A program made the position numbers and the translations under genes. From contig NC_014098.1 in the NCBI RefSeq assembly GCF_000092905.1, positions 2,418,001 through 2,482,000 on the forward strand: a stretch of 64,000 nt of DNA, in the 5' to 3' direction. The notes beneath the pieces are model-generated. The model was not told the DNA's origin, ran no database searches, and saw only the letters and a program-made list of their open reading frames with translations. Of the stretch, positions 38,075 to 41,127 are shown in pieces. Within the stretch, counting starts at the first letter, position 1, and each line of letters opens with the position of its first letter. Source of the stretch: Kyrpidia tusciae DSM 2912 (GTDB lineage: Bacteria > Bacillota > Bacilli > Kyrpidiales > Kyrpidiaceae).

Positions 38075-41050
38075 CTAGGTCAAATGATACACGATGGAAC
38101 CTTCCCCCAGCAACGCTTCCACGTCCGATGTCAGTCCGGGACCGGGTTGCACCCGCCACCTGTCTCCGAGCTCCCGGACGTCCCGGCTGGAACGAACCAG
38201 GCGAACCCTCCAGTTCCCGGGGTGCCGGGCCAACACCTGCCCCAGTTGCTTCAGCATCTCCGGCCCACCCCGCTTCACTCGGATGTAGACCCGGGCTCCG
38301 GTGAACGTCAAGCCCATCAACTCTTTTTCATGCCGAATTTTTTCCTGTTCATTCTCCGAACTCGCCCGGCGTCCGGGGCTCTCCTCGCCAAAAAACGTCA
38401 ACTGGGCACCGCCCCCGCCCCAGTGACTCTCCCGCTCTAAGCGGCCGAGCAATTCATCCCGGTTCTCACCCAGTTCATCGAAAGCACCGGCTCGAATCAG
38501 GGCCTCCACCGTCCGTCGATGGCACGCCCGGTGATCCACCCGGGACAGGAAATCCCCCAAAGAGCGAAATGTCCCCGCCCTCCGGGCGCCCAGCACCGCC
38601 TGGACCGCAGCTTGGCCCACATGTTTAATCGCTCCCAAGGCAAAACGGATCTTGCCATCTTCACTCACCGTAAATCCCGCCCCGCTGGTTTGCACCGAAG
38701 GGGGCAATACCTCGATGCCCCGCTGAAAAGCCTCTTCCACGTATTGGGCCACCTTATCGGCCGAAGCCATGGCAGCGGACAGCAGGGATGCGAAAAACTC
38801 CGCGGGGTAGTGCGCCTTGAGATACGCGGTTCGCCAGGATAACACAGCGTATGCAACCGCGTGGGAGCGGTTGAACCCATAATCGGCAAAGCGCACGATG
38901 AGGTCGTACAGTTCCTCGGCCAAATCCCTGGGATGTCCCTGCCTAAGGCATCCGGCCACAAAGGCCGCGCGCTGTTGTTCTAAAACCTCTCTTTTCTTCT
39001 TGCCCACCGCCCGGCGGAGAACATCGGCCTGGCCGAGCGTGAATCCCGCCATCCGCGAGGCGATCTGCATGATCTGCTCCTGATACACCACAATTCCGTA
39101 GGTATCTCGGAGAATCGGTTCCAAATCCGGGTGGGGATAGTGGACCGGCACCCGACCGTGCTTGGCGTCGATGTATCGGCTGATATTTTCCATCGGCCCC
39201 GGGCGGTACAAGGAGATCACCGCCACGATGTCTTCAAAACAGTTCGGCTGCAAGTCCCGCAAAACATGTTTTACCCCGGAAGACTCGAGCTGAAAACACC
39301 CGTCCGTATCGCCCCGGCCCAGAAGTTCATAGGTTTTCGGATCGGTGTACTCCTCGTCGATTTCCACAGCATGCCCCAGGCGCTCCCCCGCCAACTGCCG
39401 GGTGTGCTCGATAATCGACAGGGTGCGCAGCCCCAGGAAATCCATTTTCAATAACCCCACGGCTTCAAGGGAAGCCATGTCGTACTGGGTAATCAACCCT
39501 CCCTCCGGGGTGCGCTGCACCGGGACGACATCGGTCAAAGCCGAAGGGGCAATCACCACCCCGGCGGCATGGGTCGACGTGTGACGGGGCAACCCTTCCA
39601 GCCCCTTGGCCACCGTGAGCAATGTCCGAACCTGCTCATTCTCATCCATCAACGCCCGAAGTCGGGGTTCCTCCACCAAAGCTTGGTCCAACGTGATCCC
39701 CAGGGAAGCCGGCACAAGTTTGGCCACCCGGTCCACCAAAGCCGGCGGGAGACCGGTCACCCGACCGGCGTCCCGAATGGCCGCCCGGGCCGCCATGGTT
39801 CCGAAAGTAATAATCTGGGCAACCCGGTCGTGGCCGTATTTTTGGGCCACGTACTCAATGACTTCAAAACGGCGCTCATCTTCAAAGTCGATGTCAATAT
39901 CGGGCATGCTCACCCGCTCCGGGTTCAAGAAGCGCTCGAACAACAGGTGGTGGCGCACGGGATCCACCCCGGTAATCCCCAGGGCGTACGCCACCAGGCT
40001 TCCCGCTGCCGATCCCCGCCCGGGTCCCGTGGCAATGCCGTTTTCCCGACTGTACCGAATAAAATCCCACACGATCAGAAAATAGCTCGCAAATCCCATC
40101 CGGGCGATGACGCTGAGCTCGTGCTCCAATCGGTCCTTATACGAGGGAGGCACGGGATCGCCCACCCGCTGTCGAAGGCCCTCCTGGCATAACCGCCGTA
40201 GGTACCCATCCGGGCTCTCCCCTTCGGGCACGTCAAAAGAAGGCAGCAACACCCGCCCCAGAGGCAACTCCACCCGGCACCGCTCTGCAATCTCCAAAGC
40301 GGCGTTCACGGCCTGGGGGAGGTGAGCGAACCTTGCCCGCATCTCGGCGGAAGAGGCAAACCACCGGGGAGAAGGGGAGGGCGGCGGGGCGCCGTCATCC
40401 CCTTGCCGGAGGGCTTGCACCACCCGGGCCAAGGGCGCGTCCTCGGGGTCGATGTAATGCACGTCGGCCGTGGCGACCGGCAGGAGTCCATACTCTTCCC
40501 CGAGAGAAACCAACCGGTAGTGGCTCAAACGCCCCCTTTCACTTCCGTCGTCCTGCACTTCCAGCCACGCCCGGTTTGGCCCGAACACTTCGACAAACCG
40601 CCGCAGCCAGTCCCGGGCCCTCTCCGTGTCCCCCCGGGCCAAGGCCGCATCCACCGGGCCTTCTGCGCCGCCGGAAAGCAAAAACAGGCCGGGGGCGTGC
40701 GCTGTCACCGCCTCCCAGGACACCCCCAACTCCGGTCCGTCATGGGCCAGGCTCACCAGGCGAATCAGCCCTCGAAAACCCTTCTCCGACTCGGCCAAAA
40801 GAACCACGGCCGGCGGATCCCCTCTGGACGGCCTCTGAACGCTTTCTTCCACCAGGGGAATCTGGGCTCCCAGGATCGGCCGGATCCCCGCCTCCTTGGC
40901 CAATCGAACGAACCGAATCGCCGCGTACAAATTCGCCCAATCGGTGATGGCAACCCCGGGCATCCCGTCTGCCACGGCCCGTTGGATCAAGGCTTCCGGG
41001 CGGCACACGCCCCGAAGCAAAGAATACGCGCTATGAACATGAAGATGCAC
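38075..41050 (-). CDS. dnaE: DNA polymerase III alpha subunit DnaE, apparently without OB-fold
   Basis: A 991-residue family C replicative polymerase. The PHP domain begins with HLHVHSAYSLL. The palm acidic motif is SMPDIDIDFED, with GPGRGSAAGSLVAY nearby, and ATHAAGVVI-like THAAGVVIAPS is also present. HhH and finger regions follow. Near residue 915 the usual KELLG sequence is followed almost at once by the C-terminal module RVYIRVKRGG, so the OB-fold of about 100-130 residues seems missing. I start at GTG 41050 (AAGAAGG 7 nt upstream): a longer frame to 41116 would begin inside the ytoI terminator and lacks a ribosome binding site. Confidence 0.9.
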   Translation of the reverse strand: MHLHVHSAYSLLRGVCRPEALIQRAVADGMPGVAITDWANLYAAIRFVRLAKEAGIRPILGAQIPLVEESVQRPSRGDPPAVVLLAESEKGFRGLIRLVSLAHDGPELGVSWEAVTAHAPGLFLLSGGAEGPVDAALARGDTERARDWLRRFVEVFGPNRAWLEVQDDGSERGRLSHYRLVSLGEEYGLLPVATADVHYIDPEDAPLARVVQALRQGDDGAPPPSPSPRWFASSAEMRARFAHLPQAVNAALEIAERCRVELPLGRVLLPSFDVPEGESPDGYLRRLCQEGLRQRVGDPVPPSYKDRLEHELSVIARMGFASYFLIVWDFIRYSRENGIATGPGRGSAAGSLVAYALGITGVDPVRHHLLFERFLNPERVSMPDIDIDFEDERRFEVIEYVAQKYGHDRVAQIITFGTMAARAAIRDAGRVTGLPPALVDRVAKLVPASLGITLDQALVEEPRLRALMDENEQVRTLLTVAKGLEGLPRHTSTHAAGVVIAPSALTDVVPVQRTPEGGLITQYDMASLEAVGLLKMDFLGLRTLSIIEHTRQLAGERLGHAVEIDEEYTDPKTYELLGRGDTDGCFQLESSGVKHVLRDLQPNCFEDIVAVISLYRPGPMENISRYIDAKHGRVPVHYPHPDLEPILRDTYGIVVYQEQIMQIASRMAGFTLGQADVLRRAVGKKKREVLEQQRAAFVAGCLRQGHPRDLAEELYDLIVRFADYGFNRSHAVAYAVLSWRTAYLKAHYPAEFFASLLSAAMASADKVAQYVEEAFQRGIEVLPPSVQTSGAGFTVSEDGKIRFALGAIKHVGQAAVQAVLGARRAGTFRSLGDFLSRVDHRACHRRTVEALIRAGAFDELGENRDELLGRLERESHWGGGGAQLTFFGEESPGRRASSENEQEKIRHEKELMGLTFTGARVYIRVKRGGPEMLKQLGQVLARHPGNWRVRLVRSSRDVRELGDRWRVQPGPGLTSDVEALLGEGSIVYHLT

Positions 41051-41098: not shown

Positions 41099-41127
41099 AA
41101 AAAAAGGCCGCCTCACCCACCGACGGC
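41099..41127 (-). terminator. Terminator of ytoI
   Basis: On the minus strand GCCGTC, a 9-nt loop and GGCGGC form a stem with one G-T pair (41107-41127), then CTTTTTTT. It separates ytoI from dnaE. Confidence 0.65.

Follow-up and report, generated by a model that had tools for sequence, protein, structure and literature searches.

DnaE polymerases of the DnaE3 group are described in the main text of a 2013 survey as always being paired with PolC, and 60% of them have the full PHP-Pol3-HhH-OB-CTD layout, in which the OB-fold follows the clamp-binding motif and is typical but not obligatory (PMC3919608). The same text already includes a PHP-Pol3-HhH-CTD layout without the OB-fold, treats retention of the OB-fold and the C-terminal domain (CTD) as nonconserved, suggests that these domains may not be critical for DnaE3, and describes S. 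acidophilus as resembling K. tusciae and A. acidocaldarius in its combination of polymerases and in their domain architecture (PMC3919608). Bacillus subtilis DnaE is distributive, abolition of its clamp-binding motif is viable, and its SSB site is not known (PMC12309361); the protein binds ssDNA in vitro (PMC5627055) and, according to the survey text, requires the SSB tail in order to be retained at forks (PMC3919608). In the DNA-bound E. coli replicase, cryo-EM places the OB-fold as a bridge between the fingers, the thumb, and the exonuclease, touching the clamp and lying about 40 Å from the ssDNA template (PMC4703070). We found no experiment on any OB-less DnaE3 in the literature. Here, we describe the DnaE of Kyrpidia tusciae DSM 2912, a heat-loving bacterium, which is encoded within a 64,000-nucleotide stretch of contig NC_014098.1 (positions 2,418,001 to 2,482,000), referred to here as the window.

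Results

The layout of the window gene and its product is given in Table 1; an alternative in-frame GTG start lies upstream at position 41116. A Pfam scan of the protein found no OB family and nothing after residue 867. The same scan is able to detect an OB-fold, since it recovered the family PF01336 in the DnaE2 protein of K. tusciae. HMMs for the OB-fold and the CTD were then built from segments of OB-bearing Bacilli DnaEs, with 31 OB domains in the OB model. This model gave no match in K. tusciae DnaE and at most -0.1 bits across 33 OB-less DnaEs, whereas intact OB-bearing Bacilli DnaEs scored 66 to 141 bits, a range that leaves out one partial sequence that was cut at a contig end and scored below zero. 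The CTD model, in turn, matched residues 920 to 988 with a domain i-Evalue of 3e-12.

Table 1. Features of the K. tusciae dnaE gene and its product (positions in the window)
Feature	Position	Strand	Residues	Remarks
dnaE (DnaE3-type Pol III alpha)	38075..41050	-	991 aa	GTG start at 41050
PHP domain	40550..41047	-	2-167	Pfam
Polymerase domain (DNA_pol3_alpha)	39431..40204	-	283-540	Pfam
Fingers domain	38939..39424	-	543-704	Pfam
HhH domain (HHH_6)	38450..38719	-	778-867	Pfam
QLTFF, clamp-binding-type motif	38390..38404	-	883-887	In disordered linker 878-896; consensus from PMC3919608
HEKELMG block	38312..38332	-	907-913	Counterpart of the KELLG helix preceding the OB-fold in relatives
Junction LTFTG-A / RVYIRV	38291..38302	-	917-920	OB-fold and leading helices missing
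CTD	38078..38293	-	920-991	CTD HMM, 39.5 bits; predicted structure

Structure prediction gave the same picture. The AlphaFold model (mean pLDDT, 89.1; pTM, 0.82; pLDDT below 50 only at residues 878 to 896) contains no barrel, and the helix at residues 901 to 912 runs directly into the CTD, for which a β-α-β-β-α-β order is predicted (E920-924, H930-941, E944-954, E957-960, H971-981, and E986-989). In a control homologue (L008) predicted in the same way, the equivalent helix (residues 923 to 934) is followed by two more helices, a β-barrel (residues 969 to 1046), and then the CTD. The segment absent at the K. tusciae junction, comprising the OB-fold and its leading helices, measures about 110 to 130 residues in relatives. 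A Foldseek search with the K. tusciae model returned Pol III alpha structures at the top (2hpi, 3e0d, 4iqj, 7pu7, and 5fkv), followed by PolC and PHP proteins. The 991-residue protein thus has no OB-fold anywhere in the chain, its CTD is kept, and the loss is in frame. The initial annotation, which was made from the sequence alone, had proposed exactly such an in-frame loss with a retained CTD, and Pfam, the two HMMs, and the AlphaFold model agree with it. Its coordinates, protein length, KELMG block, and 72-residue terminal module (R920-T991) were all correct; the alignment and structure prediction that it had called for confirmed the junction, and an OB-fold elsewhere in the chain was excluded by HMM and fold.

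In other respects, the protein resembles its homologues. The catalytic-type aspartates 384, 386, and 537 are invariant among the 33 OB-less and 32 OB-bearing DnaEs compared. Among the nine metal positions of the PHP domain, ITDH is changed to ITDW (Trp38; window positions 40937 to 40942, residues 37 and 38) in all four Kyrpidiaceae DnaEs, and His2 and His4, which were also compared, are both kept. Judged from these residues, the PHP site appears to be degenerate, as is usual for DnaE3. In most DnaEs of the family referred to below as f7, a threonine or serine replaces the histidine of ITDH.

The dnaE gene has an SpxR-like CBS-HotDog gene on one side; on the other lie a CobZ/PgpA-like gene and, next to that, a malic-enzyme gene. 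B. subtilis dnaE is also flanked by a CBS-HotDog gene and a malic-enzyme gene, and because these neighbours are common to both, the two loci look orthologous. In other Bacilli families, the best-matching DnaE is mostly 45 to 56% identical to K. tusciae DnaE, and within its own family identity reaches 97%, compared with 40% to the DnaE2 of its own genome. With PolC also encoded in the genome (C1:1544553-1548461) and a closer relationship to the main Bacilli DnaE than to DnaE2, sequence comparison identifies the product of 38075-41050 as an ordinary DnaE3. An assignment as DnaE2/ImuC was considered and rejected, as the protein has a CTD, its neighbours are SpxR-like and CobZ/PgpA-like genes, and DnaE2 sits elsewhere. 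The latter (L002; C1:1009401-1012466; 1,022 residues) has an OB-fold and no CTD. Its region (C1:1008354-1013963) also holds a Y-family-like open reading frame and one of 136 amino acids, and this neighbourhood matches the iPolY/ImuB-C/DnaE2 operon described for K. tusciae (PMC6511836).

The OB-less junction is common to four genomes, namely, those of K. tusciae, Kyrpidia EA-1 (97% identical), another Kyrpidia species (G002; 77%), and a member of another genus (G003; 70%), and it reads TG/SG-ARVYIR in all four. For the whole gene, a comparison of K. tusciae with EA-1 gives a dN of 0.0137 and a dS of 0.109, and for the CTD the values are 0.019 and 0.109, respectively; the gene is under purifying selection.

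The wider distribution was followed in three samples: 400 genomes from the class, 59 from the order to which G009 belongs, and 61 from the phylum. Two families concern us most, f1 and f7, which we take to be the Kyrpidiaceae and an Alicyclobacillaceae-like family (large and with many genera), respectively, both family names being inferred, in the case of f7 from its size, number of genera, and kinship. In f7, the DnaE3 lacks the OB-fold and has the CTD in every readable case (n = 39; 29 plus 10 genomes, by sequence and HMM), with one genome (G400) scored by alignment only. In contrast, the family f48, which shares an order with f7, keeps the OB-fold, as checked by HMM for seven further sequences and for L183. 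The last of these (genome G334) has an OB-fold (79 bits) and no CTD, an opposite truncation in a family that otherwise keeps both domains. An OB-fold is also present in the representatives compared from about 25 further Bacilli families, and the short DnaEs of the phylum sample have an OB-fold and no CTD, the reverse of the Kyrpidia form. When contigs were scanned with the full DnaE sequence, the DnaEs recovered came from other groups and were either OB-bearing or cut off; none was from a record named as Kyrpidia or Alicyclobacillus. The initial annotation had treated the loss as a peculiarity of one gene, but it is a family-wide trait, and its architecture had been described before.

The two OB-less families differ around the junction. 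The Kyrpidiaceae keep the clamp motif (QLTFF, QLALF, or QLGLF) and the KELMG helix, whereas the f7 proteins (L025, L028, and L190-L214) are mostly without the clamp motif as well as the OB-fold, and their KELMG helix is mostly gone. No clamp motif was recognizable in 20 of 29 f7 sequences, and 6 of the 29 have only ALDLF. One f7 genome (G200) has a third DnaE-like match besides DnaE3 and DnaE2 (C7:80905-82434; 43% over query residues 191 to 701, in a frame of 1,172 amino acids).

In trees of the DnaE core, f1, f7, and f48 fall close together without resolution among them, and f1 plus f7 as one clade received AU p values of 0.86 and 0.70. With PolC, the AU p values were 0.031 for f1 plus f7, 0.057 for f7 plus f48, and 0.72 for f1 plus f48. 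However, PolC is not a clean marker, because the PolC of the f7 genome G388 (L231) groups with those of families f14 and f28 (support, 99), away from the other f7 PolCs; this placement suggests that the polC gene of G388 was transferred or replaced.

Discussion

The change seen in the window gene affects a single stretch and preserves the reading frame, as would be expected of a deletion introduced by sequencing or assembly into this one genome record. We give this explanation next to no credence. The same architecture is present in four separately assembled genomes, EA-1 among them, and in a whole second family, f7. The K. tusciae genome (3,384,766 bp in one contig) was itself finished at 30.7x from Sanger and 454 reads (PMC3236038). 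Since the junction recurs in relatives at 70 to 97% identity, it is not an artefact, and the four genomes rule out the sequencing error that the initial annotation had named as grounds for its own refutation. It is also very improbable that the OB-fold was replaced or was moved, either elsewhere in the chain or to a separate protein acting in trans. The genome does encode another DnaE-type OB-fold, at the C terminus of DnaE2, but HMM and fold reveal none within the 991 residues, and a profile search of five genomes (K. tusciae, EA-1, G003, and two from f7) for a free-standing DnaE-type OB-fold found only that of DnaE2, the remaining matches having E values of 0.1 to 0.5. Moreover, the complete OB-less genomes G124, G190, G209, and G272 have no DnaE2 that could supply one. 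These same four genomes, all from f7, bear on the idea that DnaE was stripped down in adaptation to a DnaE2 mutasome that takes over lesion bypass. In the class sample, DnaE2 of the L002 type (>50% identity) is confined to the two OB-less families and f48, and the main text of the 2013 survey counts three genomes with PolC, DnaE3, and DnaE2, with a footnote that relates K. tusciae, A. acidocaldarius, and S. acidophilus (PMC3919608). However, three f48 genomes (G343, G418, and G419) combine DnaE2 with a long DnaE3, the OB-fold being confirmed by HMM in G343, and at least the four f7 genomes above are OB-less without DnaE2. The loss of the OB-fold hence does not track DnaE2, and we regard such an adaptation as unlikely.

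Whether the OB-fold was lost once or twice is a closer question. A single loss in the common ancestor of the Kyrpidiaceae and Alicyclobacillaceae agrees with the DnaE core, which does not reject an f1-plus-f7 clade, and we hold it to be possible, at appreciably less than an even chance. Against it, PolC mildly disfavours this clade, genome taxonomy joins f7 with the OB-bearing f48 in one order and leaves Kyrpidia outside, and the junctions are unlike, the clamp motif and KELMG helix being present in Kyrpidia and mostly missing from f7. On account of the taxonomy and the differing junctions, we consider two losses likelier than one. It thus seems somewhat probable that two independent excisions, each with its own boundaries, removed the OB-fold from the replicative DnaE3, one in the Kyrpidiaceae and the other in the Alicyclobacillaceae, and that the CTD survived in both cases.

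Taken together, the window gene is very probably an ordinary, vertically inherited replicative dnaE of the DnaE3 type that, in an ancestor of the Kyrpidiaceae, underwent an in-frame loss of the OB-fold together with the helices leading into it; a separate loss probably took place in the Alicyclobacillaceae. Its product would do the usual job of a DnaE3, that is, extend RNA primers briefly and then hand over to PolC. The likeliest reading is that of an ordinary primer-extending DnaE3 that can now do without an accessory module contacting the clamp: the extra clamp contact that the OB-fold gives in a DnaE1 replicase may be dispensed with here, as DnaE3 would act distributively. Contact with the replisome could be made through the clamp motif QLTFF, the CTD, the polymerase core, and SSB, which in K. 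tusciae retains the acidic tail EDDLPF. In E. coli alpha, the CTD is the tau-binding domain; any part that it plays in DnaE3 is less certain, since B. subtilis DnaE needs the SSB tail to stay at forks (PMC3919608). The initial annotation had assumed that the OB-fold handles ssDNA and lagging-strand synthesis and that its loss would alter the role of DnaE next to PolC, a view that is unsupported as stated (PMC4703070, PMC3919608, PMC12309361).

The observation is true, the gene is ordinary, and the architecture has already been described, so that the finding itself is essentially known. To this, the present analysis adds a map of the trait across each family, the junction sequences, evidence that excludes an artefact as well as any recognizable replacement in trans, and the finding that the loss is not linked to DnaE2. 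Fixation across whole families provides a clean natural experiment, with an OB-less, CTD-bearing DnaE3 beside a related family that keeps the OB-fold, and a natural OB-less DnaE3 spares sole reliance on engineered truncations. If two independent excisions did occur, they would show that the OB-fold is a module that can be separated from DnaE3 and dispensed with in replisomes that contain PolC, and they would speak against its being the only site at which DnaE3 binds SSB.

The OB-less form of the 2013 survey, the dataset of which includes K. tusciae, has the same PHP-Pol3-HhH-CTD architecture and belongs to the same polymerase group as the protein described here (PMC3919608). The main text of that survey leaves the carriers of the excised-OB form unnamed and is without its family-wide extent and junctions, both of which are mapped here (PMC3919608). 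K. tusciae DnaE departs from the typical DnaE3 layout in the absence of the OB-fold, while the typical but optional CTD is present and its membership in DnaE3 is unaffected. The CTD-less DnaEs of Tenericutes and several other Bacillota are likewise shortened at the C-terminal end, to a total of about 1,000 to 1,070 amino acids, but those surveyed (e.g., L282-L285) keep the OB-fold and lose the CTD, whereas in K. tusciae DnaE the reverse is seen. DnaE2 (ImuC) of K. tusciae, a paralogous C-family polymerase, also differs from DnaE in having kept the OB-fold and in lacking the CTD. Finally, B. subtilis DnaE, also a DnaE3, has the core domains, the CTD, and a PolC partner in common with K. tusciae DnaE, but it has an OB-fold and the clamp motif QMGLF, whereas the K. 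tusciae protein has the motif QLTFF and no OB-fold.
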